A stretch of 64,000 nt of DNA from Natronobacterium texcoconense. GTDB lineage: Archaea; Halobacteriota; Halobacteria; Halobacteriales; Natrialbaceae. A program made the position numbers and the translations under genes. Shown here piece by piece: positions 16,445-61,353 of this stretch (positions are counted from its first letter, which is position 1; each line of letters begins with the position of its first letter). The stretch lies in NCBI RefSeq assembly GCF_900104065.1, contig NZ_FNLC01000007.1, forward strand, positions 62,001 through 126,000. Reading direction: 5' to 3'. The notes beneath the pieces are model-generated. The model ran no database searches. It was given only the letters and a program-made list of their open reading frames with translations, and was not told the DNA's origin.

Positions 16445-16466
16445 CGGAGTCGGACTCCGAGAGCCG

Positions 16467-24777: not shown

Positions 24778-24838
24778 ACCCTGACCTATCACACGCGGAG
24801 GTTTTTACAGTTCCGACCGGCGGACACGCCCAAAACTG

Positions 24839-40070: not shown

Positions 40071-40775
40071 ATGCGTGCCGATTCGTTGTTGCAGAGTGTC
40101 CGCCGGGTCGACGATCAGGGGGAGCGTCTCCTCTCGCTGCGGACGTTTTCGGGGCCCGAACCGTCGCGGCGGATCGACGTCGCGACGGCGACGCTCGGCG
40201 ACCTCGCAGAACTGCTCCGGACTGGCGCTCCGTTTCCGCCGCGGGTGGGGGATACGACGATTAGACGGGCCGATTTCGACGCCTCTCCAGCCGGATCGTC
40301 GACGACAGCCGAAACCGATCGGGCGCGATCGACCGATCTCGTCCTCGGCGTCCTCGAGCACAGTTACGAGCGAGGCGGGGCGAGGATCGACGACTTCGAA
40401 CCGGCACTCGCAGATCGGATCGCGGCCGACGACCGCCTCGAAACCGTCGGTTCGTGGGTGCTGGTGCCGCTCTCGTCGACCGCGCCGTACGCCCGAAACT
40501 GGTGGCCGGTCGTCGAGACGCTCCTCGACCGTCTCGAGGGCGTTCTCGAGGATTTCAGACGGGTTTCGCGGCGTGTCCGGGTCGCTGGAATCGATCACTC
40601 GCTCGCGACGGGCTGTGAGACGGTCGTCGATATGCTCGAGACGCTCTCGCTGGTCGTCAGGCGAGCCGACGCCGATTCCAGGTACGTCTCGAACCGGACG
40701 GACCAGCGTCAGGGGGAATTGCTAGCGACGATCGAGAACGCGACAGCGCAGCTACGAGGGAACGACGATGGATAA
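40071..40775 (+). CDS. helical protein of the tubulin/AAA system
   Basis: A 234-residue soluble protein that I cannot place. The first ~90 residues have a basic-acidic mix ('RRVDDQGERLLSLRTFSGPE'), and the rest is predicted helix with Leu/Val heptads ('WWPVVETLLDRLEGVLEDFR' and 'LETLSLVVRRADADS'). No membrane segment or catalytic motif. It sits between the coiled-coil protein and the AAA ATPase, overlapping the latter by 8 nt (ATGGATAA), so its translation is coupled to the ATPase's. Confidence 0.65.
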   Translation: MRADSLLQSVRRVDDQGERLLSLRTFSGPEPSRRIDVATATLGDLAELLRTGAPFPPRVGDTTIRRADFDASPAGSSTTAETDRARSTDLVLGVLEHSYERGGARIDDFEPALADRIAADDRLETVGSWVLVPLSSTAPYARNWWPVVETLLDRLEGVLEDFRRVSRRVRVAGIDHSLATGCETVVDMLETLSLVVRRADADSRYVSNRTDQRQGELLATIENATAQLRGNDDG

Positions 40776-45309: not shown

Positions 45310-47553
45310 TTACATCAGGAAGTCGCCAGTAACGGACTCGTGAGCGTCCTGGACGTACCAGTACATCCGGCGAGCGGTCCGTGTAACGATCCCTGCCGCG
45401 ACGATTCCGTAGACGCCGATCGCGAGGAACAGCGAGATTCGGGCCGTACTCAACGCGGTAGCGCGATCCTCGTGTTCGGCGGCCACCGTTTCGGCACGGT
45501 TCGATTCACCCGCGTTCTCGAACGCCGCGACTGCATCGTCGTACGAGTCGTGTAGCTCCGCCGTTCTATCGGTAACCGTATCGTACTCCGCCGGATTCAA
45601 CAGCAGCGGCTGGCCCAGCACCGTCACGAACTGCTCGGACTCCATCGACTCCCAGACGTCGTCGGCCTCCTGCGCGGCACCTGCACCCTCGGCGACCGTC
45701 TCGGAGTACTCCTCGAACGCTGCGTCGGCCTCGCTCTCGAGTTCCGCAGCGCGCTGTTCGTCGCCCTGGAGGACAGCAACCCGCGCCAGTTCACGCTGGA
45801 TCGTCGCCTCCTCGATCAGCGATAGCTCGCCGTCCTCGAGGCGCTGCTCGTAGTGGGCTTCCTGTTCGTCGATCAGCGTCTCGAGATCCTCCTCTGCGGC
45901 TCCGAGAACGTCCCTGCTTTCGCTGCGAAGCTGGTTACCCTCGAGCTGGTCTGCGTACATCCCCATCGTGTTGTACGCGGCGGAGGCCTGGACGATACTT
46001 GCCTGAGCCTCGTCGTGTTCGCCCTCTTCGAGCAGGTCGGTCGCGTCGTCGGTCGCCTCGAGGTACAGCACCGACGCGCTCCCGAAGGCGAGCACGGTCG
46101 AGACGTCGTCGCCGTCCGCATCGCCCGCGCGCATCTCGTCGTCCATCGTCTCGACGATCGAGAGGGTGCCGTCGGGAACGGTGCCGGAGTGACCGGCGAG
46201 GTCGTTCTGGATCGGATCGAGATCGAGTGGGACCGGCGACGCGACGACTCGTAGTCGTTCTCTTTCGTCGTCGTTGCCCTCGATTCTGTACGTCCACTCG
46301 TAGGTCTCTCCCAGTTCCGCCTCGGTGTCGAACTCGAGCGCGAACGAGACGGTGTCGGACCCGCCAGCCTGCAGGTCCGAGGGTCCGCTCCGGACGGTGA
46401 GCCAGTCGTCGGGGCCGTCCACGAGGGTCATCTCGACGCCGTCGACGTCGTTGTAGCCGAGTTCCTCCTCGAGGGTGGTCGACGCCTCCTCGTACTCCCC
46501 GGTCGGAACGTCGCCGAACGAGATGCCGTTTACGACGAGTTCGGTGCCGTGGACGATCTCTATGTCCTCGTCGTAGCTGGTGCCGTCGACGTCGGGCGAA
46601 CTCGCCGACGCGGAGAAGTCGTACTCGCCCTCCGAGAGTTCGGTATCCGCGGTCACTTCGACGTCGACTACTTCCGTGGACTGCCCCTCGATCTCGTCGG
46701 GAACGTCGTCGTCATCGACGTCGACGTCGATGTCCCAGCTGGAAGACGATGCCGACACGCTGCTGACCTCGAGCGGCTGGTCGCCGTCGTTGGGAACCGC
46801 CAGTTCGATCGTCTTGGTGATCTCACCCTGGTCTTTCGGTTCGTCGAAGACCATCGGATCGCCGAACGCGAGTTCGCCGAAGTAACCGGGGTAGATGACT
46901 CGAGCCTCAGCGGTCGTCTGGCGAGTAACGCCATCTTCCGTCTCGAGTTCGACCGTCCACGACAGCGTCTCGTGTTGGGAGGCGTCGTCGTCGGCGGTCA
47001 CTTCCCAACTGGCGCTCGAGCCCGAACTGCTCATTTCGAGCGTGCCGTCGGAATCGGAACTGACGACCGAGACGTCGACGTTGCCGATCGAACCCTCGCT
47101 GCCGATCTGTTCGATGCTGGCCTCTCCGGACTCGGAGTCGCCGACGAGAACGTCACCGAGATCCAGCGGCTCCTCCTCGAAGCCCGCTGCTGGCTGGACT
47201 TCGACGTGGAAGCCGAATCCGTCACCACCGGCTGCCCCATCTACCGAACCCGTTTTCGCATCTGTGCCCGCACTGACAGTGAGCCCGACACTCTCTTCCT
47301 CACCGGGAGCGACTGTGACGGAACCCTGATGGGGCGACACGCTCACTCCATCCGGAGTGCTCGTAATATCGATACTGACCGTCTCTTCGCTATCTCCAGT
47401 GTTCTCGACCGTAAGCGATGTTTCGGTATCACCACCAGCGACCACGTCTACGTCCGATGGGCCACTGGTCACCTCGGTGGCCTGTGCAGCCGGCACTATC
47501 GCTAACCCGAACGCCAGCAACACCGCGAGCACTACGAGTCCTCGCCTAGACAT
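45310..47553 (-). CDS. membrane-anchored ectodomain protein, Ig-like and coiled-coil
   Basis: About 747 residues. Signal peptide ('GLVVLAVLLAFGLAIVPAAQ'), then NEW3/CARDB-like Ig modules ('DTETSLTVENTGDSEETVSI', 'IELAVPNDGDQPLEVSSVSA'), a coiled-coil region at ~500-690 ('LIEEATIQRELARVAVLQGD'), one C-terminal membrane helix ('LFLAIGVYGIVAAGIV') and a short cytoplasmic tail. It is last in the leftward operon. The start is chosen at ATG 47553, overlapping the upstream stop by 8 nt. A cell-envelope component. Confidence 0.75.
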   Translation of the reverse strand: MSRRGLVVLAVLLAFGLAIVPAAQATEVTSGPSDVDVVAGGDTETSLTVENTGDSEETVSIDITSTPDGVSVSPHQGSVTVAPGEEESVGLTVSAGTDAKTGSVDGAAGGDGFGFHVEVQPAAGFEEEPLDLGDVLVGDSESGEASIEQIGSEGSIGNVDVSVVSSDSDGTLEMSSSGSSASWEVTADDDASQHETLSWTVELETEDGVTRQTTAEARVIYPGYFGELAFGDPMVFDEPKDQGEITKTIELAVPNDGDQPLEVSSVSASSSSWDIDVDVDDDDVPDEIEGQSTEVVDVEVTADTELSEGEYDFSASASSPDVDGTSYDEDIEIVHGTELVVNGISFGDVPTGEYEEASTTLEEELGYNDVDGVEMTLVDGPDDWLTVRSGPSDLQAGGSDTVSFALEFDTEAELGETYEWTYRIEGNDDERERLRVVASPVPLDLDPIQNDLAGHSGTVPDGTLSIVETMDDEMRAGDADGDDVSTVLAFGSASVLYLEATDDATDLLEEGEHDEAQASIVQASAAYNTMGMYADQLEGNQLRSESRDVLGAAEEDLETLIDEQEAHYEQRLEDGELSLIEEATIQRELARVAVLQGDEQRAAELESEADAAFEEYSETVAEGAGAAQEADDVWESMESEQFVTVLGQPLLLNPAEYDTVTDRTAELHDSYDDAVAAFENAGESNRAETVAAEHEDRATALSTARISLFLAIGVYGIVAAGIVTRTARRMYWYVQDAHESVTGDFLM

Positions 47554-48544
47554 CGCTATCACCCACCGTTACGACCGAGCCGACCTGTGCCCGCTCGTAG
47601 GTCCGCTGCCAGGCGAAGATCCGTCGCAGGAGAATCGTTCCTAGTAGGCCGACGACGACCCCGTAGCCGACGAGCACTGTCACCGAAGCGACTGCGAGCG
47701 ACAGCTGTGTACCCCAGACCTCGCCCCCGACCGCGGCGATCTCTTCCTCGCGGTCCTCGAGGCCGTGTGCCGCCGCTTCGCTTTCGGCAGCACTGATCTC
47801 GGCGCTGACCGTTCGAACCTGCTGGTAGTTCTCGAACGTCTCGAGGGAACCCGGGACGCCGGCGACGGTGTTCCCGACGCTCTCACAGTCCGCACAGCGG
47901 TCGAGGAACGCCTCGGCGTCTTCTTCGGCCTCGTCGATCTGCTCGAGTGACGACTCGTAGGCTGCGGTCTCCTGTTCGACCTGAACGTTGAACTCCGCCG
48001 CCTCGTCGGGCATGTTCGCTCGCTCGTAGGCCGTCGCGGTCATCGAGAGGTACTCGATCCGGTCGGGCGTCCGTTCGGCGGCGTCAGCCTCGTCGTGGAG
48101 GCCGCCGGCCAGTCCCTCGTAGAACCGCGTCAGCGCGAGATCCGCGAGCGTCGCCTGAGTCGACTCGAGGTCGTCGATTCGGTCGTCCGTCCGTTCGGCG
48201 TACTCGAGGCTCCGCTCGTACTCGCCGGCCTCGGCGTAGTCGTAGGCCTGCTCGAATGCCATCATCGTCTCGTGGATGGCTTCGAACTCCGCGCGCTCGC
48301 TGGCGTCGAGCGATCCAGTATCCTGGACCTGGGTGACGGCGAACGTCCGGATCGTCTCGAACTCGTCGTACTCCTCGTAGGCGTCGGTACCTTCCATCGT
48401 GCGGAACTCGTCGAAGTAGTCGTCGGCCGTCCGCGGTTCGTCGGCGACGACGGCCGTGGCGAACAGCGGTACCGTCACGACGACTGCGACGACCATGACG
48501 ACGAGCAATCCTATGCGAGTGCTGTCTGGGATCTTTCTTTCCAT
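47546..48544 (-). CDS. two-helix membrane protein with external coiled coil
   Basis: A 332-residue protein. Membrane helix or signal at 11-34 ('LLVVMVVAVVVTVPLFATAV'), an external helical domain (35-283) with TPR-like units ('AFEQAYDYAEAGEYERSLEY') and a Cys pair (CADC), a helix at 284-309 and a basic cytoplasmic tail ('RRIFAWQRTYERAQVG'). Architecture parallels its downstream neighbour (helical ectodomain then C-terminal helix). It starts 3 nt after the stop of the 895-residue gene. Confidence 0.72.
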   Translation of the reverse strand: MERKIPDSTRIGLLVVMVVAVVVTVPLFATAVVADEPRTADDYFDEFRTMEGTDAYEEYDEFETIRTFAVTQVQDTGSLDASERAEFEAIHETMMAFEQAYDYAEAGEYERSLEYAERTDDRIDDLESTQATLADLALTRFYEGLAGGLHDEADAAERTPDRIEYLSMTATAYERANMPDEAAEFNVQVEQETAAYESSLEQIDEAEEDAEAFLDRCADCESVGNTVAGVPGSLETFENYQQVRTVSAEISAAESEAAAHGLEDREEEIAAVGGEVWGTQLSLAVASVTVLVGYGVVVGLLGTILLRRIFAWQRTYERAQVGSVVTVGDSDV

Positions 48545-48547: not shown

Positions 48548-51235
48548 TCAGAACACCGTCCGTGAAAGTCGCTCGCGGAGGGCGTCGTGCTCGAACAGCC
48601 GTTCGACCGCATCGAACACCACCAGGGACGCATAAAGGGCCACGACCGCTTCGCGTTCGCGGTCGGTATCGTCGAAGAGTTCCCAGGCACGCTGGTGCAT
48701 CTCCCGTGCCGGCGCGGTCTCGGAGACGTCCTGCCGGGCGTCTTCGATCCGTTCTCCGACTGCGTTGTACCGTTCTTTGAGTTCTCTCCGTTGCTCCTTC
48801 GGCTCCGCCTCGAGCCGCTCGAACAGCTCGAACAGTTCCTCGAGTTCGTACTCGCCGCGCCAGCGAACGCCGGGATCGGGCATGTCCGCACAGGCAGCAA
48901 AGAGGTCGATAGTTCGCTTCGTCGTCATCGCATCGTTGATCGCATCCGTCGTCCTCGCGGCGGTCTCGAGAATCGCGTTGGCGAGCACGTCCGGATCGAC
49001 GTCGACGTCGCTGTCCACGAACAGGTGACCGGAGTCGGGAATCGACTCGACGGCCTCGAGCATCGATTCGACGACCGACGCGTAGTACGCCGGGATAGCC
49101 GTATCGCGCCCGGAGTGGACGGTCAGCGACTCGAGATCCTGCCGGATGCGGTCGATCCGGACGGCCTGGTCGTCTTTCCCGCTCGAGAGCGTCCAGGTGA
49201 ACTGAGCGTTTACCGACGCGTCCACGGTATCGTCTTCCGTGACTGTGAGCGGTGCTTCGTCGTCGTCGAATACCTCGTGGTAGCCGTCCGGTGCTGGAAT
49301 CTCGGCCCGATAGTTGCCGATCAGTACGTCACCTTCAACGACGCCGTTGCTGTCGGGTTCGACTGGAATATCGTTGGCGCGATGATCCGGAAACGGCTCG
49401 TTCTCGTTCGGGACGAGTCGGAGTGACAGCCATTCGTTCGGAACGCCGTCGATCCGCGAAGTGACCCGAACCCGCCCCGTTCGGGACGGGAGTGCGACCG
49501 TCGAATCTTCGTTACGACCGAACCGAACGGTCTCCGTTCGACTCTCGTACTTCTCGTGGCTGACCTCGACCTCGACGCTCGAGCCGTCCTCCGTCGGCTC
49601 GACCGTGACAGTGCCGTCGCCGTGTTGCTTTAGTTCCGTATCTGGTTCGCCAACGACGTCGACGGTTGCTTCGGGAATCGTCTTCTGTTTTTTCGACTTG
49701 CGGGTTGTCGACTCGTCGACGATAGTAACCGTCGTCGGAGAGGTGATCGCGAGGGTGGCGGACGAGCTACGGTGACTCACTTCGACGGGCTCGGACGAAT
49801 GGGAGCCGTCCGTCGCCCACAGCTTCCACACGCCCCGTTCCGGGAGCGGAACCGGTCCGCTTCCGTTCTCGACGCGTTCCTTACCGCCGAGGCTGCTATC
49901 GCTCGCGTGTTCGTACTTGACTGTCACGTCTTCGTCGATATCCCGGGTTCCGTCGGTGATCGTGACGGTTGCCGTGAATCCCGGCTCTTCGGGCTCCGGA
50001 CTCGAGCCGAACCGCCGGTAGGTCGCTGGCGCGACGATCGTTCCGAGGAGGACGGCGATCCCGCCGAGGAGGTGCTCGATAGAGAAGTCGTTGATCGGAT
50101 CCAGTGAAATATCGTTCAGGTAGAAGACACTGATCGTCGCCGCAGCCGTCAGACAGAGGCCGATGACTGCGAAAAGTGCGAGATTCACTGCCGTTGCAGC
50201 CCTGAATTTGCTGCCGACGGCACCCAGGCTGGTTCCGATAACCAGCGAGAGGACCAACGGTGCGACGAGCGCTAGTTCCTCGATGGACGGCAGTGACAGT
50301 CCGTCGTCGAGTTCGGACGTCTCGACCGTCGCGACGCCCGCCGCAGTCTGTAGCAGAAGTTCGTCGCCGGCATCCTTTCCCTCGATCTCGAGTTCGAGCT
50401 GTCCGTTCTCGCCGATCTCGCCGCCGGCGTACGTGTAGTTCTGACCCTCGACCGGTTCGGGGACGACAGACGTGACCTCGAGTCCGGCGACACCCTGCTG
50501 GAACTCGAGTGTGTTCCCGTCGACGGACGCCGTGAGTGCGAACGGACCGGGGTACTCGAGATTGTCCTCTTCGACGACGGTTTCGTCGTCGGAGTTGGTC
50601 ACGGTGATCGAAACGCTGTCGCCGGGTGACAGCGAATCGAGTCCGTACACGCCTGGTCGGAGCCGTTCGGTAGTATCGGCGCCCTCTACGTCCACGTCGT
50701 ACTCCTCTCCGCCGAGCAGCGGGTGCCAGACGGCGAGCTGACCGTCGACGGCCCGGATATCTGCTTCGAGAGGGAGTGTCCCGCCGTCTATCTTCTCGCC
50801 GTCGCTCGTTCGAACCTCGAGTTCGATCTCGTCACCGGGTTCGACGTCGGGGGGCCCGTCGTACTCGATGGCAAGCTGGTTTCCGTTGACGACGGTCGCC
50901 TCGAGTGGGTCGTCGTCGGAGGCGGTAACGGTGACGTTGATTTCGTCACCCGGTTCCAAGCCGGTCGTTTCGGAGCCGTTCAACGGCACGCGGAGTACGT
51001 CGGTCGCGTTCTCGTCGTCGCCGGCCCCGTCGATCCAGACTGGCACGTCCTCGTCGAAGGAGACGTCGTACGACGGTGCGGTTTCGTTCTCGGCTGTGTC
51101 TTCTCCCCCGTCGTCAGCCGCTGCAACGCCCGGGGCGACTGCGCCGGCGAGCGCGAGCGCCACGACGACGGCGACCACGACGAGGCCCGCTCTCACGACA
51201 GTCGTTCGAACGTCGGTTGTGTGTTGTGCGTCCAT
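48548..51235 (-). CDS. large membrane protein with Ig-like ectodomain and cytoplasmic helical tail
   Basis: An 895-residue protein. Signal peptide (12-40), an extracytoplasmic beta-rich region (~55-315), three membrane helices (~321-339, 349-371, 388-405), then a ~490-residue cytoplasmic half. That half begins with more Ig-like modules ('VTITDGTRDIDEDVTVKYEH'), goes on to carboxypeptidase-regulatory-like segments ('VEGDVLIGNYRAEIPAPDGY') and ends in an alpha-helical part ('YELEELFELFERLEAEPKEQ'). It is placed directly after the first tubulin-like gene and could link it to the membrane. Confidence 0.75.
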   Translation of the reverse strand: MDAQHTTDVRTTVVRAGLVVVAVVVALALAGAVAPGVAAADDGGEDTAENETAPSYDVSFDEDVPVWIDGAGDDENATDVLRVPLNGSETTGLEPGDEINVTVTASDDDPLEATVVNGNQLAIEYDGPPDVEPGDEIELEVRTSDGEKIDGGTLPLEADIRAVDGQLAVWHPLLGGEEYDVDVEGADTTERLRPGVYGLDSLSPGDSVSITVTNSDDETVVEEDNLEYPGPFALTASVDGNTLEFQQGVAGLEVTSVVPEPVEGQNYTYAGGEIGENGQLELEIEGKDAGDELLLQTAAGVATVETSELDDGLSLPSIEELALVAPLVLSLVIGTSLGAVGSKFRAATAVNLALFAVIGLCLTAAATISVFYLNDISLDPINDFSIEHLLGGIAVLLGTIVAPATYRRFGSSPEPEEPGFTATVTITDGTRDIDEDVTVKYEHASDSSLGGKERVENGSGPVPLPERGVWKLWATDGSHSSEPVEVSHRSSSATLAITSPTTVTIVDESTTRKSKKQKTIPEATVDVVGEPDTELKQHGDGTVTVEPTEDGSSVEVEVSHEKYESRTETVRFGRNEDSTVALPSRTGRVRVTSRIDGVPNEWLSLRLVPNENEPFPDHRANDIPVEPDSNGVVEGDVLIGNYRAEIPAPDGYHEVFDDDEAPLTVTEDDTVDASVNAQFTWTLSSGKDDQAVRIDRIRQDLESLTVHSGRDTAIPAYYASVVESMLEAVESIPDSGHLFVDSDVDVDPDVLANAILETAARTTDAINDAMTTKRTIDLFAACADMPDPGVRWRGEYELEELFELFERLEAEPKEQRRELKERYNAVGERIEDARQDVSETAPAREMHQRAWELFDDTDREREAVVALYASLVVFDAVERLFEHDALRERLSRTVF

Positions 51236-51241: not shown

Positions 51242-52471
51242 TCACTCCGCGTTCCGGTCGACGTACGACTCGAGGTTGTCGACGATGCGATCCAGTTCGC
51301 TCTCGCTGAGGTCGCTCTCGCCACGGCCACCACCGGCGAGACTGTCGCCGAGCATCTCGAACTCGTCCCAGGAGTGCTCGAGCAGCGGGTTCAGGTCGAA
51401 GCCGCCGAGCAACAGCAGGACGTCGACGTCGCTTCCGCGGCCCCGTTTCGGCGTGAGGCTGGCCTGTCCAGCGACGTTGATGTCGTGTTTCTCCGTCCAG
51501 TCGCGGAAGGCCCCGTAGACGTCTGGTTCGGTAATCGCGTCGTTCTCGATCATGCTCTCGGGGGCGCGAACGATCGCGTATGCTGCCTGCGTCGTGCCGA
51601 CGTCCATCGGCACGTACGTGTTCCCTGCGGCCTGGTCGAGCATGTACTCGAGTTCGTACACTTCGCCGTTGAGGTCCGTCGCGACCGCTGGCGTGAAGTG
51701 GTAGGCGTCCATCTGGGACGGGATCGTCACGTAATCTTTCACGTCGATCACGCTTCGGGTCTCGCGGCCGGCGCCGATCATCAGGTCGACCGCGGTGATG
51801 ATCGCGTCGTTGATCGAGTCGTAGTGACGGCCGTTGCCGTTCTCCTCGTCGTCGAGGTGGGAGTTTGCAGCGAGCAGGACCATGTCGGCGTTCTGTCCGC
51901 CATCGTCGACCCGGAGCAGCCGAGAGAGCCCACAGACCGCGTTGAAGTGTCGCTGCGGCGGCTCGGTGTAGTAGGGCCAGACGCCGAAGGCAGTGTGGAT
52001 CACGCTGTCCATCCACTCTTCGGCCGCGCCGTCGTCGTCCAGGTCCTCGAGACCGTGTTTGAACTGGTCGACGACGTAGGGAATCGACCCGTTTCCGGTA
52101 CCGCCGCCGAGCGTGGCGACGTGCATGAACGCGTCGGCGTGTCCGAAGTTGTCCTTGATCCGGTTGACGATCCGATCGAGGCTCTCGCGGGCACAGGCCT
52201 CCCCGTTCGGGAAGAAGTTCCCGGCTCCCTGCTGGGAACCGAATTCGAGGGCGTACGATCCCATCATCTCCTCCTCTCCCTGTTCGTCGTGTAACTGCTC
52301 TCGCATCCGGTCGATCGTGTTCCGGAGGTCCGCCCGGTTCGTGTTCATCACCAGGATCCGGTCGTCGATTCCCGGATTCTCTGTTCGGTCGAAAAACTGC
52401 GACGTGATCCGTCCGCCACCCTCTCCCGAGGCGATGACGCTCCATCTCGTAAACGTGTCCGTTGGTGCCAT
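51242..52471 (-). CDS. tubulin/FtsZ-superfamily protein 1 of the system
   Basis: A 409-residue protein with the superfamily's GTP-binding landmarks: 'VIASGEGGGRITSQFFDR' (loop 1, 12-29), 'LVMNTNRADL' and the tubulin signature 'ATLGGGTGNGSIPYVV' (GGGTGNG at 122-128). A helix-7-type region, 'HYDSINDAIITAVDLMIG', follows. The extra inserts and lack of FtsZ/CetZ C-terminal motifs place it with divergent tubulin-like families (Tubulin_2-like) rather than FtsZ1/2 or CetZ. A GTP-binding, possibly polymerising component. It follows the 698-residue membrane protein gene with 1 nt between. Confidence 0.82.
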   Translation of the reverse strand: MAPTDTFTRWSVIASGEGGGRITSQFFDRTENPGIDDRILVMNTNRADLRNTIDRMREQLHDEQGEEEMMGSYALEFGSQQGAGNFFPNGEACARESLDRIVNRIKDNFGHADAFMHVATLGGGTGNGSIPYVVDQFKHGLEDLDDDGAAEEWMDSVIHTAFGVWPYYTEPPQRHFNAVCGLSRLLRVDDGGQNADMVLLAANSHLDDEENGNGRHYDSINDAIITAVDLMIGAGRETRSVIDVKDYVTIPSQMDAYHFTPAVATDLNGEVYELEYMLDQAAGNTYVPMDVGTTQAAYAIVRAPESMIENDAITEPDVYGAFRDWTEKHDINVAGQASLTPKRGRGSDVDVLLLLGGFDLNPLLEHSWDEFEMLGDSLAGGGRGESDLSESELDRIVDNLESYVDRNAE

Positions 52472-52472
52472 G

Positions 52473-54569
52473 TTACTGTATCTCGATCGCTGTTTCGGTG
52501 GTCGTCACGCTGTGCTCCGTCTCGTCGATCGTCGCGATCACATCCCGGATAATCGAGTCGGACACCGGTGCCGAGAGGAAGTTCTGTCTGAGTTCGTCGA
52601 AGGGAAGTCGATCACCCGACTCGACGTTGTACTCGAGAACGTTCGTCAACTCCCGCTCGAGTTCTTCGCGGTCGTAGACGACGATTTCGTCGCCGTCCCG
52701 GTAGACGTCGTACTCGGTACGCTCGCTCCATGTCGCGAGCAGACACGGCGCGTGTGGGTCTCGCACCGGGAGGTCCATCGTCGTCGAGACGTACCCTTCC
52801 TCGTCGAACAGGTCCTCGAGGTGGGGCCGCATCTCCGGGAGCACCTCCTCGATGTCCGTATCGAGGTCTCCACAGAGTTGCTCCTGGAGGCTTCGCTCGG
52901 TGAACTCGAGGTCGATCTCGGTGCCGTCGTCGATCTCAATCTCCCGTTCGACGATGCCGAACGCCTCGTCGCCCGGATCGGCGACGAGCGTGTGGGTGCC
53001 CGCGGGCACGTCCTCGAACGTTATCGTGCCGGCGACTCGCGTCTCGACGGTTTCGGTCGCCGCGTAGCCGCCGGTCAGTTCGATCGTCGCCGTCCGGACG
53101 TCGCCGCCGCGTTCGTACGCGACGTCGACGGTGAGTTCGTACGTCTCGACGTCGCCACGTCGAAGGACGGGCACGTCGGGATCGAACTCGACGCCCTCGT
53201 TCCGACGGAAGTAGAGCCCGAGGAACTGGTCTGCGTGGCGCATCGGCAACTCCTCGCCGGTCACTTCGCCCTCGCGCTCGAGCGTCTCCTCGATCGTCTC
53301 GGCGACGTCGTCGTAGGCGTCGACGACCGCCGCTTTGGTGCTCGCCGTCTCGAGGGCCTCGACCAGTTGCGTCGCGACTTCGCTCCAGCGGTCGGTAAAC
53401 GCCTCGAGATCGCCGATTTCCTCGAGTTCGTCGACGAAGCGTTCACCGACGACCGACGGCTCGCTGTAGTAGCCCGACGGGAGATCGGCGTCTCGGAGCG
53501 TCTCCACGTCGTCCGCGAGGTCACCTTCCATCGCGGCGATCACGTCGACGCACGTCCGGCGCAGGTCCGCGCGTGGCCGACTCAGTTCCGCCAGATCCAG
53601 CGCCGAGTCGAGTTCCTCGACGGTCGACTCGATGCGATCGATCTCGTCGACGTAGTCGGCGTCGACGTGGGCGTCGACTCCGGTCCGATCGACGGCGTCG
53701 ATCAGGGACCGCAACGTCTCGCGTTCCTCCTCGAACGACCCGGAGAACTGATCGCGAAGCCGGTCCCGCGCCTCGAGGATCGATTCGACGGCGTCGTCGA
53801 ACGCGTCTTCGTCGAGGGCCTCGCGTGCGTCTTCGAGGTCGCGATCGATGGTGTCCGCGTCGTCGGGACGAACGTCTCCCCGCCCCATCTCGCGGACGGT
53901 GCCGATCGCGTCCTCGAACGATTCCGTCGCCTCCGTCCGGAGGGCCTCGATCGCGTCTCGACACTCCGGCACCGAGGCTTCCCGCTCCGGATCGAGTTCG
54001 GGATAGGCGTCGTGGTCGGCGTCTGCGAGGTCGACCTCTTCCAGGCGCTCGAGTGCAGCCTGGATTCGCGATCGTTCGCCGGCACCGAACTCGCGGAACG
54101 AAGACGCAACGTCATCCTCGAGGGTCTCGATCTCGGTCGATAGCCGTTCGAACTCCTGGAGGTCGCCGTTCTTGACGCCCTTTCCGAGGTCGAACGCGCC
54201 CGACTCGAGGTCGACGGTGACGCCCTGCGTCTCGAAGTCACCCGCGATCGACTCCATCCGGGCGTCGACGCCAGGATTCCAGTCGGCGTAGGCGCTCTCG
54301 AGGCTGTTTACCCGTCGAACGCACTGCTGGAACTCCTCGGCGACCGACCGGGCGCGGGTGCGGACGAACTGCTGTTCGCTGGTGCCGCTGCGGGCGACGA
54401 CGCCGCGGACGTACAGCGTGATCCCGGTGACGACGACCAGCGGGATGCCCACGAGCACGAACCAGGTCGCGGCCTGTGAGCCGGACCAGACGAAGATACC
54501 GGCACCGAGCGCCGCCGCGAGGACGACGAGTCCGCCGATTCCGGCGGCAGTCTTCCCGTTCCCGTTCAT
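52473..54569 (-). CDS. membrane-anchored cytoplasmic coiled-coil protein
   Basis: A 698-residue protein with two N-terminal membrane helices (~10-28 and 34-55), then ~640 cytoplasmic residues. These include a long acidic helical region (~60-440; 'DLEDAREALDEDAFDDAVES'), a beta-sandwich module ('TYELTVDVAYERGGDVRTAT' and 'GTITFEDVPAGTHTLVADPG') and a C-terminal alpha/beta part ('YDVYRDGDEIVVYDREELER'). The spectrin/septation-ring-like layout suits a membrane tether for filaments. It overlaps the upstream gene by 4 nt. Confidence 0.72.
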   Translation of the reverse strand: MNGNGKTAAGIGGLVVLAAALGAGIFVWSGSQAATWFVLVGIPLVVVTGITLYVRGVVARSGTSEQQFVRTRARSVAEEFQQCVRRVNSLESAYADWNPGVDARMESIAGDFETQGVTVDLESGAFDLGKGVKNGDLQEFERLSTEIETLEDDVASSFREFGAGERSRIQAALERLEEVDLADADHDAYPELDPEREASVPECRDAIEALRTEATESFEDAIGTVREMGRGDVRPDDADTIDRDLEDAREALDEDAFDDAVESILEARDRLRDQFSGSFEEERETLRSLIDAVDRTGVDAHVDADYVDEIDRIESTVEELDSALDLAELSRPRADLRRTCVDVIAAMEGDLADDVETLRDADLPSGYYSEPSVVGERFVDELEEIGDLEAFTDRWSEVATQLVEALETASTKAAVVDAYDDVAETIEETLEREGEVTGEELPMRHADQFLGLYFRRNEGVEFDPDVPVLRRGDVETYELTVDVAYERGGDVRTATIELTGGYAATETVETRVAGTITFEDVPAGTHTLVADPGDEAFGIVEREIEIDDGTEIDLEFTERSLQEQLCGDLDTDIEEVLPEMRPHLEDLFDEEGYVSTTMDLPVRDPHAPCLLATWSERTEYDVYRDGDEIVVYDREELERELTNVLEYNVESGDRLPFDELRQNFLSAPVSDSIIRDVIATIDETEHSVTTTETAIEIQ

Positions 54570-55300
54570 CGGATCACCCCCAGCAACTCGACGTCGACTC
54601 CGAAGTGGAGAACGAAGACGGCGATTCCCGCTATTGCGAGGACGAGTCCGAGCAGGATCGGCAACAGTGCCGTCTTCCGGTCGTAACTGACGTCCCGGCT
54701 CAGCTTCATCTTCTCGTCGACGCGCCTCGCGGCGATCAACGGCAGTGCAGCGCCGGCGACGGAACCGACGAGCAGGCCGCCGAGAAGCGGCCCGAACAGA
54801 GCGATCTGAACCGTCGATTTCGGCTCGTTGCGCTCGCTCTCTACCGCATCCACGTACTCGTCTGTCGCGTTCGCGAGCGCCTCGGTTCGCTGAGTACGCT
54901 GTGTGTCGATCGTCTCGATCACACCGACCGTCCCCGTCGCGTTCCCCGCTTTCGTCTCGCTTCGTAGGTAATTCACGAACGCAATCTCGTCTTCGGTCAT
55001 GTTCTGGTTCCGGTCGTCGAGGCGCTCGAGCGTCGCATTCGCGTTGTCCAGCGCTTCCTCGAAGTTCGTCTCGTCGTCTTCGATCGCTGCGATCGACTCG
55101 TTCAACTGATCGATCTCGTCCTGAAGGCGGTCCGACGACTCGAGATACTGCTCCTCGTGAGACTCGTACTCGCCGTCGCTTTCCGTGATCCAGTCGACGT
55201 CCTCGAGTTCGGAACTGTCTGCCGCGACAGTGCCGCCGACGATGGCGATTCCGACCGCTAGTACCGTCACGAGAATCAGGGCTCGCGTCGCACTAGTCAT
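54566..55300 (-). CDS. exported coiled-coil protein with two C-terminal membrane helices
   Basis: A 244-residue protein. Signal peptide (1-27), an extracytoplasmic coiled coil (~35-160; 'QDEIDQLNESIAAIEDDETN' and 'NANATLERLDDRNQNMTEDE'), a helix at ~166-190 and another at ~210-236, with the basic loop 'ARRVDEKMKLSRDVSYDRK' between them in the cytoplasm. Overlaps neighbours by 8 and 4 nt. Function unknown. Confidence 0.72.
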   Translation of the reverse strand: MTSATRALILVTVLAVGIAIVGGTVAADSSELEDVDWITESDGEYESHEEQYLESSDRLQDEIDQLNESIAAIEDDETNFEEALDNANATLERLDDRNQNMTEDEIAFVNYLRSETKAGNATGTVGVIETIDTQRTQRTEALANATDEYVDAVESERNEPKSTVQIALFGPLLGGLLVGSVAGAALPLIAARRVDEKMKLSRDVSYDRKTALLPILLGLVLAIAGIAVFVLHFGVDVELLGVIR

Positions 55301-55562
55301 GTAACCGCCTCCTGATCTGTCGGTTCTTGTGCCAGTAGGTGAGAGCGCTCGCGACGACGAGTCCGACGCCGAGACCGATCAGGAGTCCGCCAGCGGCGAC
55401 GAATAGTGGATCGGCCGCGAGTTCGAGTGTCGTCTGTGCTCGGTCGGTCGCTCCGGTAGCGTCTCCGATCGGTGATTCGGCCGCTGCGACGCCGACGAAG
55501 CCGAGACACGCCAGCGCGACTGCGAGCGTTCTGGTCGTAGCCCGTCGTAGCCTCCGTTTCAT
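55293..55562 (-). CDS. small exported membrane protein
   Basis: An 89-residue protein. Signal peptide ('TLAVALACLGFVGVAAA'), a short external stretch, one membrane helix (~53-75, 'PLFVAAGGLLIGLGVGLVVA') and a basic cytoplasmic end ('HKNRQIRRRLHD'). It overlaps the tubulin-like gene upstream by 4 nt (ATGA) and the downstream gene by 8 nt, so it is a real, translated member of the operon. Confidence 0.7.
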   Translation of the reverse strand: MKRRLRRATTRTLAVALACLGFVGVAAAESPIGDATGATDRAQTTLELAADPLFVAAGGLLIGLGVGLVVASALTYWHKNRQIRRRLHD

Positions 55563-56842
55563 GCCAGCAACTCCTCCGTCTCCGTCTCGTAGGCGTCTGC
55601 GGCCGCTTCGATCTCCTCGAGGCGGTCGATGTCCTCACGCCGGTAGGTCAGTAGCGTCGTCACCGACGCGAGGTTCCGGTCGCTGAGTGCGACGCCGAGA
55701 TTCACTTCGCTCAGTCCGCAACTGCGCTCTAAGAACTCCTTGACCGTTCCCGTCTCGATACTGTACGGTCCGGCCTCGAGGTTCGCGCTCGGAGCCCTGA
55801 CGAGCGAGATGGCCTTCTGTGCGTCGTCGACGTCCGCGTTCGCGAGCGTCTGTTTCGACGCCGACAGCCGGGACAGCGCGGCGCTGTCGATCTCTCGCTT
55901 GCCGACGAACGGCAACAGGTAGCCCGGCAACGATCGGGTCATCGTCACCGATCGTCCGATCGCGCCGTACCCCGGCTTCGAGTCGTCGGTGCCGACGCCG
56001 AACGACAGCGAGGTTACGATGTCCCGAACGTCGATGTCGGGTGTGTCGATTCCCTCGACCTCGCTCGCGTCGACGCTGCTGAGCATCGGGCCGGCGACCA
56101 TGTCGTGGATCGCCGCCGCGACGTACTCGTTGTACTCGCCGAACTCGCCGCCGGCGGAGTCGAGATACGAGATGCGCTGGTTGTCGACGAGGATGATGCC
56201 GTCGACCTCCTCCTCGAGCCGATTCAGGCCGTAGCGGGCGTTCCAGGCCTGTCGGCCGGCGGTCGTCTCCTCGTCGTCGGAACCGCTGCTCCCCTGCATG
56301 TTCGGCAGGATGGCGACGGCGATGATCTTCGTGTTATCGTCCGTGAACGCCTTGATCTCCCGTGCGAGGTGTGGGCTGATGCCACAGCCGGTTCCACCGC
56401 CGAGTCCGAGAAAGAGGAAGGCAAACTGGATCGTATCGGACCGGCCGCGGTCGGCCGCGTTGCCGCCGGATTCGTCGTACTCCGACTCGAAGCCGCGCTC
56501 GAACTTCTCGCTGAAGATCGTCTGTAGCTCCGAGGTGTGGTCGTCCATCACCTCGTCGGCCGCGGCGGGGTTGCGCCCGAAGCCGCCGGTAACCATCTCC
56601 TCGAAGCCGGGTTCGGTTCCCTGAACCAGGCCGTGCTGTTCCGCGATGCCGTACTGATCTTCGGCGGGCACGTTCGACAGGTTCTGGAGGTCCCGCATCG
56701 TCGAGTTAAAGACCAGCGGTCGACCGAGCGTCGAGATGTCGGTCGATTCGAACAGCCCTAACATCGAGTCGTCGGTATAATCGAAGATCGCATCGACGAT
56801 CGCTCCCCCTGCCTGTCCCGCCCCTACGAACAGGTATGTCAT
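55559..56842 (-). CDS. tubulin/FtsZ-superfamily protein 2 of the system
   Basis: A 427-residue protein with the clearest GTPase motifs of the three. 'LFVGAGQAGGAIVDAIFD' (loop 1; the GxGQAGG form is shared with tubulin and CetZ), 'VFNSTMRDLQNL' and 'FLGLGGGTGCGISPHLA' (GGGTGCG at 148-154). 'VAILPN' and the central helix 'NEYVAAAIHDMV' follow. Like the other two it lacks FtsZ C-terminal motifs. It heads the leftward eight-gene run and probably has its own promoter in the AT-rich gap upstream. Confidence 0.85.
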   Translation of the reverse strand: MTYLFVGAGQAGGAIVDAIFDYTDDSMLGLFESTDISTLGRPLVFNSTMRDLQNLSNVPAEDQYGIAEQHGLVQGTEPGFEEMVTGGFGRNPAAADEVMDDHTSELQTIFSEKFERGFESEYDESGGNAADRGRSDTIQFAFLFLGLGGGTGCGISPHLAREIKAFTDDNTKIIAVAILPNMQGSSGSDDEETTAGRQAWNARYGLNRLEEEVDGIILVDNQRISYLDSAGGEFGEYNEYVAAAIHDMVAGPMLSSVDASEVEGIDTPDIDVRDIVTSLSFGVGTDDSKPGYGAIGRSVTMTRSLPGYLLPFVGKREIDSAALSRLSASKQTLANADVDDAQKAISLVRAPSANLEAGPYSIETGTVKEFLERSCGLSEVNLGVALSDRNLASVTTLLTYRREDIDRLEEIEAAADAYETETEELLA

Positions 56843-57136
56843 TTGAGTTTCAACTGATTATGTATTTCACACACAAAATAATTGATAGACGATACACGTT
56901 TCGACGGTAGGTAGTAATCGAGTATCACCTAATAAAGATATTGGCTGTTGCTGTTATCTCGTTCTATTCGGACGTTTGGGCGTTAGTTGTGTGGTTTAGA
57001 GAAGTAATATATTCGGGTGGGTTCCGGGTTTCTATTCTCGAGAAAAGACATATGTGGAAACTAATAGTTGTCCGGCCCGTGGAAAACACAATAATACTGG
57101 TACGTTTTTCAGCGTAGCCGGAACGTGACTGCGGGA
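56843..57136. promoter_or_regulatory. AT-rich intergenic region with promoter of the eight-gene run
   Basis: A 294-bp stretch, far more AT-rich than its surroundings. On the minus strand 'aaatacataatc' and 'caattatttt' at about 56858-56882 could be TATA boxes for the tubulin-like gene starting at 56842. Other AT patches near 57020 and 57090 have no matching gene. No ORF of note. Confidence 0.45.
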
Positions 57137-57901
57137 CTATCCTCGAAGTCGCCGAAGCATGACGCTGTACTCGTTGCGGTCGTACAGCTGTTCGACGTAC
57201 GCCAGCAGTTCGTCCGCGGCGGAGAGGAGGCCGACGGCTCGTTCGGGACGTTCGCTCTCGAGTTGCATCGCTTCCTGCCGGAGGTCTCTGGCCAGCGAAA
57301 GGAAGTGGTTGGGAATCGTGTGGTTGTGGTCCGCTCGAACGTTGACGTACTCGTCTTCGATCGTCTCGATACGGGATTCGACGTCCGCCGCCAGCCGGCC
57401 CACGTCACTCGGCTGGTCGGCGGAACGGGCCCGTGCCAGCCGTGGCAACAGCGTCCGATCGTAGAACGTACACTCCTGATACACCGCGTACAGTTGTACG
57501 GCGTCGCCGTTCCGGTCGACCATCGCCTCGAGTTCCCGGATTCGATCCACGAGATGGCGATAGGTCGCCCCGTCTCTGTCCTGAAGCTCCGCCTCGAGCG
57601 AGTCGAGTCGCCGGCGGACGTCACGTTCCCCGATGTCGTCGATGCCCTCGAGCGCTTCTGCCGTCTCGAGTACCTCGATTGCGTCCTGCAGGACGTCTTC
57701 GACGCGCTCGCTCGTTGCGGACGGATCAGAAAGCGTCCGACACAGCCGTATCGCGAGATCGGAATCCAGACGTTCGCGGTTCGCGATCGTTTCGGCAGCC
57801 CTCGTCGCAGGGTGTGATTCCGGCTTCGAGTCTCGTCTTCTACCCCGGTCACGTTCCGATCGAGAGCTGTCGTCAGCGCCAGTGTTCGTGTCGTTCGTCA
57901 T
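57137..57901 (-). CDS. soluble helical protein of the system
   Basis: A 254-residue protein, helical throughout. An Arg/Asp-rich disordered start is followed by 'VEDVLQDAIEVLETAEALEG', 'RRRLDSLEAELQDRDGATYR' and a final pair of helices ('AVGLLSAADELLAYVEQLYD'). No membrane segment, no known domain. It lies between two tubulin-like genes (102 nt after one, 294 nt before the other) and is probably a partner or bundling factor. Confidence 0.65.
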   Translation of the reverse strand: MTNDTNTGADDSSRSERDRGRRRDSKPESHPATRAAETIANRERLDSDLAIRLCRTLSDPSATSERVEDVLQDAIEVLETAEALEGIDDIGERDVRRRLDSLEAELQDRDGATYRHLVDRIRELEAMVDRNGDAVQLYAVYQECTFYDRTLLPRLARARSADQPSDVGRLAADVESRIETIEDEYVNVRADHNHTIPNHFLSLARDLRQEAMQLESERPERAVGLLSAADELLAYVEQLYDRNEYSVMLRRLRG

Positions 57902-58003
57902 GGTTTTCGTGTCGTCGAATCGCCGTCTCTCTCGTTCGATTCCGAACTCCGGTGAGCGAAGCCCGCTTTCCGCTGCTGACGGTGGTCGCGTGCTCGGCTC
58001 GGT

Positions 58004-59626
58004 CTATCCCATGTTCTCCCGGCCCAGACAGGAGAACAGCGCCTCCACGTGTTCCCACGCGTCACGTACGTTCTCGGCCTGCTGGGTGTTACCCTCCTGT
58101 TTGAGCGTCCGGGCGTGGTCGTACATCTCCTCGAGCGACGGCATCTCCGGGTTCCACAGCGTTCCCCAGAGGTAGACGTCGTCGAGGTAGGGGGTAACGA
58201 GCTGTTTGACGTGGACGTCGACGGCCTCGATGCCGCTGACGCTTTCCGCGTCGAGGAACTGCTCGTCGGCGATGATACTCGAGAGGGTGCCGTCGGAGAC
58301 GAACTCGGTGACTTCTTCCATCTTCTCCTCGGGGCCGTAGACGAGGAAGGTGCCGCCCCAGGCCGTCGTCGGGTCGAACTCCGCGAGTTTGTTCTGGAAC
58401 AGTGCGTTCCGGACGAGAATCTCGAGTTTCGACTCGTCGAACGAACTGGCACGCGACCGTCCGAGGACGGGCGCGAGGATCACCGCTGGCGTGAACTCGC
58501 CGTCCGGATCGCGCTCGTACTTGTCCTGGACCGGTCGGAAACTGTCGGCAGGGTCGAATACGTCACCCTTGATCGACATGTTCGCATCCCGGTCGAGGAA
58601 CTGCGGCACCGACGACATGGTAAACGCCTCGAGGAAGGCGACCAGCGGCCGGTTGATCTCGCGGTACTGTGGCGGGTTGTACTCCTCGAGGCGGTCGATC
58701 CGCGGTCGGATGTCCGCCTGGGCGTCCTCCAGCCGGTTGTTGTCGAAGGGGATGATCGCGTCGACCGTCCGGGAGGCTCGAGCTAGCCCCACGACGCCGT
58801 TTACCTTCGCCCGGCCGCCGAACTCGGAGTACTCGGTCCCTTTCGAGGGGATGACGATGCTACTGAAAAGCGGCTTCGGGACGACGAAGTCGTCTTCCAG
58901 GACTTCGTTACGAACCTTTTCGGCGAGGACGGGCGTCGAGCCACAGCCAGTCCCTTTCGTGACGCTGTGGACGAACATGATCGCCTGCGAGTCCTGGATC
59001 GTCTGTGGCTTGAGATCCCACCGCTCCCGGAAGGGGTTGCCACCGTCCGCGAAGTCGGCCTCGACGAGGTCCTTGCCGATGTCCCACCGGTAGCCGGCAC
59101 CGGCGTAGTCGTGTTTCCCCTGGCCGATGATGCAGTTCGAGAGGAGGTCGTGTCGGCTGTACTCTTTCTCCTCCTGGGCGTAGTAGGTCTGCTCGAGTTC
59201 GCTGACGTTGGTGTTCAGCGGGCCGTATCCCGCGAGTCCCCCGTTCCAGATGCGGGCGCGACGTTCGTTGTTTTCCTCGAGGGTCTCGCGTCGGAGCAGT
59301 ATCGCGTCGAGGATGTTGTTCCCCGCACCGCCGACGCCGATCAGGAACCACTTCTTCCCGTAGGAACTGTCCATCAGGTCGTCGGTCGGCTGTTCGGTCC
59401 CTGACGGCCCACCTGTCGCTCCCGCTCCGTCAGTTCCGGGCGTTCCGCTGTGATTCCGGGCCGAATCGTCGGGCGGAGACTCGTCGAACACCTCCGCTTC
59501 TAGCTCCGGATACACTTGCTCGACCGATGCCGGTTCGTCCCCGTGTGCGAGTCGAACGTGTTCGACGAGCGAGCCGCCGTCCCACTCGTTCGCTCGCTTC
59601 ATACAGATTTTACAGATGTTGGCCAT
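58004..59626 (-). CDS. zinc-finger tubulin/FtsZ-superfamily protein 3 of the system
   Basis: A 540-residue protein. A C2H2-type finger (Cys5, Cys8, His23, His28 in 'CKICMKRANEWDGGSLVEHV' + RLAH) and a ~55-residue acidic/Gly linker precede the tubulin-like core. The core has 'FLIGVGGAGNNILDAIL' (94-110), 'PLNTNVSELEQ' and a changed signature, 'SVTKGTGCGSTP' (TKGTGCG at 223-229), where two Gly of GGGTG are Thr-Lys. GTP binding may persist but hydrolysis could differ. The finger is unusual for tubulins. A TATA-like box at 59661-59672 precedes it. Confidence 0.82.
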   Translation of the reverse strand: MANICKICMKRANEWDGGSLVEHVRLAHGDEPASVEQVYPELEAEVFDESPPDDSARNHSGTPGTDGAGATGGPSGTEQPTDDLMDSSYGKKWFLIGVGGAGNNILDAILLRRETLEENNERRARIWNGGLAGYGPLNTNVSELEQTYYAQEEKEYSRHDLLSNCIIGQGKHDYAGAGYRWDIGKDLVEADFADGGNPFRERWDLKPQTIQDSQAIMFVHSVTKGTGCGSTPVLAEKVRNEVLEDDFVVPKPLFSSIVIPSKGTEYSEFGGRAKVNGVVGLARASRTVDAIIPFDNNRLEDAQADIRPRIDRLEEYNPPQYREINRPLVAFLEAFTMSSVPQFLDRDANMSIKGDVFDPADSFRPVQDKYERDPDGEFTPAVILAPVLGRSRASSFDESKLEILVRNALFQNKLAEFDPTTAWGGTFLVYGPEEKMEEVTEFVSDGTLSSIIADEQFLDAESVSGIEAVDVHVKQLVTPYLDDVYLWGTLWNPEMPSLEEMYDHARTLKQEGNTQQAENVRDAWEHVEALFSCLGRENMG

Positions 59627-59750: not shown

Positions 59751-61262
59751 TCATTTCACATGTCTGTCGGCGAACCGGTCACGGATCGTCTCGAGTCCCG
59801 CAGCGACGTTCGTCCGCTCGTCGAACTCGATCTCGAGAAAGCCCGGCGGCGCGTCCTCCTGTAACTCGACGTCGACGACGACGTCGGTCTGGCGTCGACA
59901 GAACCGTGCGAGTTCCTCAAGGACTGCCTGCTTCGCGACGGCGTCGGGAAGTCGTCCGGTCTGGCACTCGACGGTGTTGCCGTCGCCGACGCTCTCGAGT
60001 TCCCGCAGGACGAACAGCACTTCGTCGGCGACGGACTCGGCCGTCACCTGCTCGCGGGTTCGGTCCCGTGCCGGCGGTTCGTCGGCGGCCGGTGGTGTTC
60101 CGTTTTCCGTTCCGTTCTCCGGTTCACTACCGCCGTCCGACCGATTCTCGACGACGATCTCCCGTCCGTCGACTTCGGCGACGACGTCGTACTGCCGCTC
60201 GACGACCGGGGCCAGATCCGTCAGCACCGCCACCGGGACGTTCTCGGGAACCCCGACCGTTCCGCCGCCGTGATCGATCGTCCCGACCAGTCCACCCAGG
60301 AGATCGACCGTCACCAGCAGGTCGTCGGCCTGTTCGCGACTCTCCTCGAGCGTCCGGGTCGCGTCGTCGAACGCACACCGGTGGAACTGCCGGATCGCCT
60401 CCTCGAGTTGCCGTTCGATCCCGAGGACGCCGTCGATTTCGTCGTGTCTGCCCTCGAGGACGAACTCGCCGACGCGCTCGCCGAGGTCACCCTCGAGTCG
60501 GTCGGTCAGTTCGCGGACGTCCGCGAGGGCGTCTTCGACCGCTGCGTGTCGCTCGCGAAACGTCTCCTCCTGGCGGTCGACGTACGTCTCGATCTCCCGG
60601 CAGTGATCGAACAGCGTCGCGACCGTCCTGGCGGCGTCCCGGACGTACTCCTCGTCCTCGAGGACGTCCCGGGCGACGGCCTCGACGTCGGCGACGTGGA
60701 TCGTCTCCTCGGACGGCGGAAGCGACACCTCGCGGTACTGACTCGGGAGGTTCACGATCTCGTAGGATTCGCCGAACGACGACGTCACGCCTGGATCGAG
60801 GCGGCCGTCGGCGATCGCGTCCTCGATTCCACGACGGAGGTCGCGCTCGAGTCGGTCGATCGCCGCGGTCGAATCGTCGGCCTCGGCCGGGTCGAACTCC
60901 CGGACGCGGTCGACCGCGTCGGGTGCGATCGGCTCGAGGCGATCCAGCGTCCCGTCGCCGATCCGTTCCTCGAACTCGACGAGTGGGTCGGTCCCCTCGG
61001 TCTGTGTCTCCTCGGTGACGTCGATACTCGTCTCCGCCGGCGACGCCGACCGGCGAGAGTGAATCGCCACCGCCACCGTGCCGCCGGCGACGAGCACGGC
61101 TCCGACGAGGGCAAGCGCCGTTCCAGAGGTTCCCACGAATCCGACGACCGTCTCGAGTCGTCCGATATCGCTCACGGCCGAGAGTCCGGTTCCGCCGTCT
61201 CGAGCCGCCGCCGACCAGTCGACGAGAGCCGTCCAGTCCACGCCCCAGCGGTCGATCTGCAT
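59751..61262 (-). CDS. membrane-anchored cytoplasmic helical protein
   Basis: A 503-residue protein. One N-terminal membrane helix (~45-68, 'TALALVGAVLVAGGTVAVAI') leads to ~430 cytoplasmic residues, largely helical ('LFDHCREIETYVDRQEETFR', 'DALADVRELTDRLEGDLGER'), and a C-terminal alpha/beta part ('CRRQTDVVVDVELQEDA'). The layout is like the 698-residue protein at 52473 (membrane anchor, then cytoplasmic coiled coil). ATG 61262 is chosen; GTG 61271 is possible. A TATA-like box near 61292 gives a leaderless or short-leader transcript. Confidence 0.7.
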   Translation of the reverse strand: MQIDRWGVDWTALVDWSAAARDGGTGLSAVSDIGRLETVVGFVGTSGTALALVGAVLVAGGTVAVAIHSRRSASPAETSIDVTEETQTEGTDPLVEFEERIGDGTLDRLEPIAPDAVDRVREFDPAEADDSTAAIDRLERDLRRGIEDAIADGRLDPGVTSSFGESYEIVNLPSQYREVSLPPSEETIHVADVEAVARDVLEDEEYVRDAARTVATLFDHCREIETYVDRQEETFRERHAAVEDALADVRELTDRLEGDLGERVGEFVLEGRHDEIDGVLGIERQLEEAIRQFHRCAFDDATRTLEESREQADDLLVTVDLLGGLVGTIDHGGGTVGVPENVPVAVLTDLAPVVERQYDVVAEVDGREIVVENRSDGGSEPENGTENGTPPAADEPPARDRTREQVTAESVADEVLFVLRELESVGDGNTVECQTGRLPDAVAKQAVLEELARFCRRQTDVVVDVELQEDAPPGFLEIEFDERTNVAAGLETIRDRFADRHVK

Positions 61263-61353
61263 GTGCCACACCTGCCAGTAGAGGAGTAAAGAAGTATCGG
61301 CCTCGGGGGTACACAGCGAATCGAGGAGCTATCGACTCGTTAGATCTGCCGGA

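Follow-up and report, generated by a model that had tools for sequence, protein, structure and literature searches.

Three divergent tubulin-superfamily proteins in a haloarchaeal island with ESCRT-like genes

Background

The element considered here is an island of genes, three of them for tubulin-like proteins (TubA, TubB and TubC), within a 64,000-nucleotide stretch of Natronobacterium texcoconense DNA (contig NZ_FNLC01000007.1, positions 62,001 to 126,000; hereafter the window), and the closest described system is the Halo_adaptin endosomal sorting complex required for transport (ESCRT) system. The accessible part of its description gives the loci a Vps4-like ATPase of the VAT-N type along with a PspA-like protein, winged-helix (wH) proteins, PQQ/Ig proteins and a membrane protein (PMC10936438), and names one CetZ-related protein, with Haloquadratum walsbyi as exemplar (Makarova et al. 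2024, PMC10936438). Separately, a family named Halo.Tub is reported, in the part of that paper available, to occur in 'quasi-tandem' copies (Santana-Molina et al. 2023, PMC9871819). FtsZl1 (Tubulin_2) proteins are membrane-linked and division-independent, and their genes share operons with genes for membrane proteins (Makarova and Koonin 2010, PMC2875224), while tubulin heterodimers are marked by a catalytic Glu in one partner and a Lys in the other at the T7/H8 sensor (PMC13371889).

The N. texcoconense island shares with Halo_adaptin its occurrence in Halobacteriales, a Vps4-like ATPase, a PQQ/Ig 'adaptin-like' protein together with further Ig proteins, a membrane protein and a CetZ-related protein. 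In H. walsbyi J07HQW1, genes for TubC, h254, TubB, M698 and TubA stand in that order, with an orthologue of the island's AAA ATPase (55% identical to AAA569) about 13 kb from tubA. The island is probably the published Halo_adaptin ESCRT system; it differs from the available text, with its one CetZ-like protein, in encoding three distinct tubulin subfamilies and six to seven membrane proteins. Halo.Tub, matched here by description, not by sequence, probably corresponds to some or all of TubA, TubB and TubC, and relative to the accessible part of that account the ESCRT link and the analyses of loops, zinc finger and co-occurrence are found only here. Like FtsZl1, the three are relatives of tubulin whose operons also encode membrane proteins, but they lack its long coiled coil. 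The CetZ proteins of Haloferax (CetZ1/2) are the best structural match of TubC, and CetZ can be profile-aligned with TubB over its full length; in contrast to CetZ, the three give no CetZ_C match, and TubC has its own T4 loop and a finger. As with OdinTubulin (the best match of TubA), the alpha/beta-tubulins of Loki- and Heimdallarchaeota, BtubA/B and eukaryotic tubulin, several tubulins are encoded per locus, though identity is 18% and an Asp stands at T7 in all three proteins instead of the Glu/Lys split. The system is thus already known in part, as the Halo_adaptin locus and as quasi-tandem Halo.Tub; relative to the accessible parts of the main published texts, what is added here is the three-subfamily composition, the obligate pairing of TubA with TubB, a fixed TKGTG loop, a predicted finger-tubulin fusion and a suggested exchange with FtsZl1.

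Our reading of the island, which we hold to be probable, is that TubA, TubB and TubC represent three ancient, separate subfamilies within the tubulin superfamily, distantly related to CetZ and tubulin, and that all of them work in a single membrane-remodelling machine, the Halo_adaptin ESCRT-like system of haloarchaea. A shared machine is probable because the three proteins, the membrane proteins and the ESCRT-like cluster are inherited together. It would be a membrane machine of archaea in which three distinct tubulins have stayed together across wide divergence and, should these co-assemble, a multi-tubulin cytoskeleton outside the Asgard/eukaryote line, tied to ESCRT-like genes.

Results and discussion

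Three separate groups within the tubulin superfamily

A first-pass annotation of the window had reported three tubulin-like genes with the signature (T4) loops GGGTGNG, GGGTGCG and TKGTGCG and with differing first loops (GEGGGR, GAGQAGG and GVGGAG). The open reading frames bear this out, and the products score 35.0 (TubA), 57.1 (TubB) and 41.8 bits (TubC) against Pfam PF00091 (Tubulin), all above the curated cut-off of 33 bits. Profile-profile comparison aligns the three with one another (E 8.7e-10, 7.9e-11 and 1.5e-14) and each with the profile of the genome's own CetZ (E 2.6e-17, 6.8e-22 and 1.1e-11), the hhalign alignment of TubB (E 6.8e-22) spanning its residues 1-422. Chance or mis-called reading frames are ruled out by the Pfam matches together with orthologues in other genomes.

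All three proteins combine the PF00091 match with two guanine-site Asn residues and the T7 acids. The GGGTG signature loop is found in TubA and TubB, and an invariant TKGTG takes its place in TubC, which is still a member of the superfamily, as a variant, because the other features are present. Membership of FtsZ, CetZ or FtsZl1 is ruled out by scores below cut-off: against the FtsZ equivalog TIGR00065 (cut-off 295 bits) the proteins reach only 19.7, 33.2 and 25.6 bits, none matches CetZ_C (PF21011) at E up to 1, and against Tubulin_2 (PF13809, cut-off 27) TubB scores 17.6 bits and TubA and TubC are unmatched.

AlphaFold2 models were made of TubA (mean pLDDT 79, pTM 0.84) and TubC (mean pLDDT 71, pTM 0.70), the fold of TubB being judged by profile alignment only. 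Among the matches listed, the best for TubA in the PDB is OdinTubulin (Z 36.8, rmsd 2.8 over 365 residues, 18% identity), followed by BtubB, tubulin of a gamma-ring-capped microtubule, BtubA and beta-tubulin, so that the matches listed are tubulins; TubC is closest to CetZ1 (Z 33.1) and CetZ2 (Z 32.9). The two-domain fold with helix H7 and a C-terminal domain is thus predicted for TubA and TubC over a near-full core, and for TubB from its alignment.

In our phylogeny the three form deeply separated monophyletic groups (ultrafast bootstrap, UFBoot, 98, 100 and 100) with long stems (1.2-1.6 substitutions per site), and the profile identity between TubA and TubB is about 25%. Together they make up a clade apart from the genome's CetZ and FtsZ, albeit in a tree with few references, and the branching order among them is weakly supported (UFBoot 38).

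Joint inheritance

Across the 392 Halobacteriales genomes surveyed, TubA occurs in 37 and TubB in the identical 37. TubC is present in 35 of these and, as a divergent solo copy, in two others; p372, the first gene of the neighbouring operon, is found in the same 35, and additionally in one incomplete genome. The hypergeometric probability of this co-occurrence is below 1e-44, a significance inflated by relatedness among the genomes. Named hosts include Halobiforma, Natrinema, Halorubrum, Halorussus, Haloarchaeobius, Halopenitus, Halobaculum, Natronomonas, Halomicroarcula, Halovenus and Haloquadratum, and when TubC was sought in 196 genomes across the phylum, the four carriers were all Halobacteriales. 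Cultivable members such as Natrinema, Halorubrum, Haloarchaeobius and Halorussus are suited to experimental tests.

The tubulins need not form a strict three-part polymer, because TubC occurs without TubA and TubB, and the pair without TubC, in two genomes each. This pattern also favours an arrangement in which the three form separate homopolymers, acting at different steps or places of one pathway with no co-polymerisation. The deep separation of the clades points the same way, as does the retention by each protein of the full nucleotide-site and T7 residues (below), but no genome has one of TubA and TubB without the other (0/37), which weighs against separate polymers. We regard separate homopolymers as possible, if on the unlikely side.

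Signature loops, guanine site and T7

Returning to the reading of a shared machine, each member of the set appears equipped to handle nucleotide. The T4 loop is invariant within subfamilies: GGGTGNG in 37/37 TubA (residues 122-128), GGGTGCG in 37/37 TubB (148-154) and TKGTG in 34/34 TubC orthologues (within TKGTGCG, 223-229). Equally invariant are two guanine-site Asn residues, N203/N221 in TubA, N221/N238 in TubB and N296/N325 in TubC, pairs in T6 and H7 that profile alignments place on CetZ N169/N187; these we take to be the equivalents of tubulin N206/N228, which hold guanine. A T7 DxxD motif, placed on CetZ T7 by three separate profile alignments, is likewise invariant (TubA D243/D246 and TubB D271/D274 in 37/37, TubC D358/D361 in 34/34). 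Because the guanine-site Asn residues and the T7 DxxD are retained, each of the three should, to judge from sequence, bind GTP and offer the next subunit a catalytic acid. Conservation over T7-H8 is 0.78, 0.78 and 0.86 in TubA, TubB and TubC, against protein averages of 0.70, 0.64 and 0.70, in line with a longitudinal contact of each protein at this site, whether the neighbour is the same or another of the three.

In TubC, Thr and Lys replace the first two Gly of GGGTG, the loss of which had been remarked in the first-pass annotation. With the loop the same in 34/34 orthologues, Haloquadratum included, the view of TubC as a degenerate third paralogue is rejected, and on its conservation TKGTG is a fixed trait of the subfamily, not decay. 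The solo TubC proteins carry AKGTG and ENGTG, and so the third Gly, the Thr and the fourth Gly are the conserved part of the TubC loop. By our own count the first Gly corresponds to G105 of E. coli FtsZ. The FtsZ84 mutant protein (G105S) hydrolyses 0.47 GTP/FtsZ/min, compared with 7 for wild type (PMC4603965). Slow turnover of TubC-bound GTP is plausible by analogy, since a Thr sits at the FtsZ84 position and a Lys at the second Gly; a naturally fixed T4 variant at this position offers a direct test of what the signature loop does.

TubC is distinguished further by its residues 1-30, which hold a C2H2 motif (C5-x2-C8-x14-H23-x4-H28) present in 33/33 full-length orthologues after correction of two mis-set starts, and which are predicted to form a zinc finger fused to the tubulin. 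A literature search for zinc fingers joined to the tubulin superfamily in archaea found nothing, a weak indication that the fusion is new. Such a fusion provides a handle for direct tests.

TubC might be a cap or scaffold, a switch that binds GTP and does not cycle, instead of a filament subunit. The Thr and Lys of its loop and the N-terminal finger motif with its linker would suit such a role, but the nucleotide face, T7-H8 and a stretch at residues 416-432 (0.88) are all conserved, which is unexpected in a one-sided cap, and the solo proteins with AKGTG and ENGTG still have DxxD. This makes a pure cap unlikely in our judgement.

A quite improbable arrangement is the obligate mixed filament of the alpha/beta kind, with one catalytic and one non-catalytic subunit. 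It would account for the identical set of 37 genomes holding TubA and TubB, and an altered T4 loop in TubC is in keeping with it. Alpha- and beta-tubulin are, however, about 40% identical, and TubA and TubB have diverged far beyond this, as their profile identity and stems attest. Its hallmark, loss of the catalytic acid at T7/H8 (PMC13371889), is also absent: no complementary pairing of catalytic and non-catalytic residues is seen at T7-H8, DxxD being invariant in all three. The active-plus-modified set of the first-pass annotation therefore survives in part: a functional set is plausible from joint inheritance and the fixed TKGTG, whereas the analogy with alpha/beta tubulin, and with it a split into catalytic and dead partners, does not fit proteins that all keep DxxD and both guanine-site Asn residues.

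The island and a proposed machine

The tubulins lie in a minus-strand operon with the order M506, TubC, h254, TubB, (M89), M244, M698, TubA, M895, M332, M750, convergent with a plus-strand operon of p372, cc352, q234, AAA569 and the PQQ protein (Table 1). Almost every locus, with TubA identity ranging over 44-89%, preserves the order of the former, and in 9/10 loci sampled the latter is convergent to it. In the three genomes of genus g58 the two operons are separated by a long distance (about 260 kb in G080), but neither has been lost.

Table 1. Features of the island, by position in the window.
Feature	Position	Strand	Description
p372	37863-38981	+	first gene of convergent operon; putative winged-helix, by position in the Halo_adaptin description (PMC10936438)
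cc352	39011-40069	+	coiled-coil protein; putative second wH / ESCRT-III-like slot, by position (PMC10936438)
q234	40071-40775	+	small protein directly upstream of AAA ATPase; synteny
AAA569	40768-42477	+	Vps4/VAT-like AAA ATPase; PF00004 E 4.5e-32; PDB matches VAT/p97, Vps4
PQQ/Ig protein ('adaptin-like')	42470-45265	+	PF13360 weak, E 2.5e-4 (below cut-off); synteny
M750	45310-47562	-	signal, Ig-like domain (NPCBM_assoc / HYDIN-type Ig, above Pfam cut-off), C-terminal transmembrane (TM) segment; synteny
M332	47546-48544	-	N- and C-terminal TM; synteny, hydropathy
M895	48548-51235	-	signal, central TM block, soluble C-terminal part; synteny, hydropathy
TubA	51242-52471	-	409 residues; tubulin-like GTPase by sequence; loops SGEGGGR, GGGTGNGS
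M698	52473-54569	-	two N-terminal TM and large soluble part; between TubB and TubA
M244	54566-55300	-	signal/TM, coiled region, two TM
M89	55293-55562	-	small membrane protein, poorly conserved
TubB	55559-56842	-	427 residues; tubulin-like GTPase by sequence; loops GAGQAGG, GGGTGCG
h254	57137-57901	-	cytosolic helical protein, between TubC and TubB; same place in 34 loci
TubC	58004-59626	-	540 residues; tubulin-like with N-terminal C2H2 finger motif; loops GVGGAG, TKGTGCG
M506	59751-61271	-	one predicted TM; first gene of tub operon; synteny, hydropathy

Hydropathy predicts TM segments in six or seven island proteins, for most of which scans of Pfam and NCBIfam gave nothing useful. M698, found in all island loci (37 orthologues, median 697 residues), is a candidate filament anchor, and h254 also accompanies solo TubC. 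M750 scores 28.3 bits (cut-off 25.5) against a HYDIN/CFA65/VesB-type Ig model, a domain best known from cilia and centrosomes.

In the machine that we envisage, TubA and TubB, as an obligate pair, would bind GTP and form polymers on the membrane's inner face, to which TM proteins of the operon would tether them, M698 being the best candidate. TubC would also bind GTP, probably with slow turnover owing to its Thr-Lys phosphate loop, and its zinc finger may link the polymer to partners. The PQQ/Ig proteins would select cargo, and the operon of AAA ATPase and ESCRT-III-like proteins would complete budding or scission. Polymerisation, membrane anchoring, slow turnover by TubC and the ESCRT link are steps that we infer, the last from gene neighbourhood and the literature. 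The fullest version, in which a three-part cytoskeleton (a TubA/TubB polymer with a slow zinc-finger adaptor, TubC) physically drives or gates an archaeal ESCRT-III/Vps4-like scission machine and the ESCRT-like operon can be swapped for a fourth tubulin (FtsZl1) in some lineages, is speculative, and we consider it doubtful.

Several points weigh against a single machine. TubC is dispensable in two genomes with TubA and TubB, and two other genomes have TubC but not the pair. The ESCRT-III and wH identities of p372 and cc352 are literature assignments by gene position; both occupy the described slots, and Pfam gives them weak coil matches only. The T7 region of TubC is of low confidence in its model, and the association of the operons can stem from co-transfer.

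Signs of horizontal transfer

The island is patchily distributed, in 3/5 genomes of its own genus and 16/95 genera, and TubA identity to the N. texcoconense copy cuts across families, at 86% in some members of family f5 compared with 67% in genus g19 of its own family. Because of these two features, the sequences suggest that the whole island has spread by horizontal transfer. The same features could speak for an accessory unit that moves horizontally (serving defence or virus exit, for example) and in which the tubulins have no cell-biological role, but this is very improbable, there being a large conserved membrane set, no mobile genes noticed in the island and no relative in 2.9 million viral contigs, the last result also leading us to reject a viral or proviral origin.

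Atypical loci and other tubulin relatives

Two genomes (G135 and G141) have TubA and TubB without TubC or p372, each with a gene for FtsZl1 (Tubulin_2; 1159 and 1174 residues) nearby. In a third (G204), which lacks p372, a solo TubC lies about 10 kb from an FtsZl1 gene. FtsZl1, in the form of genes for proteins of about 1150 residues (L104 4211-7687, L131 8992-12513, and L138), thus adjoins 3/4 of the atypical loci that lack the ESCRT-like operon. In the fourth (G010), solo TubC is accompanied by a 458-residue protein (L133 2148-3521) with tubulin-like loops GLGGGGLR and GGSGNG and no PF13809 match at 1e-4. Elsewhere, FtsZl1 proteins of more than 1000 residues scored above the cut-off in one other of 45 genomes checked (G301), away from the island. 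As a lead from three or four cases, this suggests that the ESCRT-like operon has been exchanged for an FtsZl1 system in some lineages.

G141 also encodes a second TubA homologue (L084 9474-10661), 26% identical, in which T4 is gone (VPGGKASW) and which Pfam tubulin models do not recognise; from its sequence, it is possibly a non-GTPase descendant.

In genus g58 the separated operon of p372 and the AAA ATPase has an ordinary CetZ gene about 2-3 kb away (L135 6414-7601, L136 2303-3490). The former was considered as an additional member of the Tub set and rejected, as it groups with ordinary CetZ in the tree.

In N. texcoconense itself, the three genes singled out in the first-pass annotation are a distinct and jointly inherited set but not a complete inventory, given that the genome encodes 11 PF00091 proteins and the window a fourth superfamily gene, an ordinary CetZ at 23623-24792 (CetZ_C E 2.2e-41, 142 bits). 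This CetZ was rejected as a fourth member of the set, since it is a CetZ beside a transglutaminase/MoxR cluster: the gene adjoins a tRNA endonuclease, and upstream of it lies a transglutaminase/DUF4129 protein whose cluster (15473-23433) also includes a MoxR AAA ATPase.

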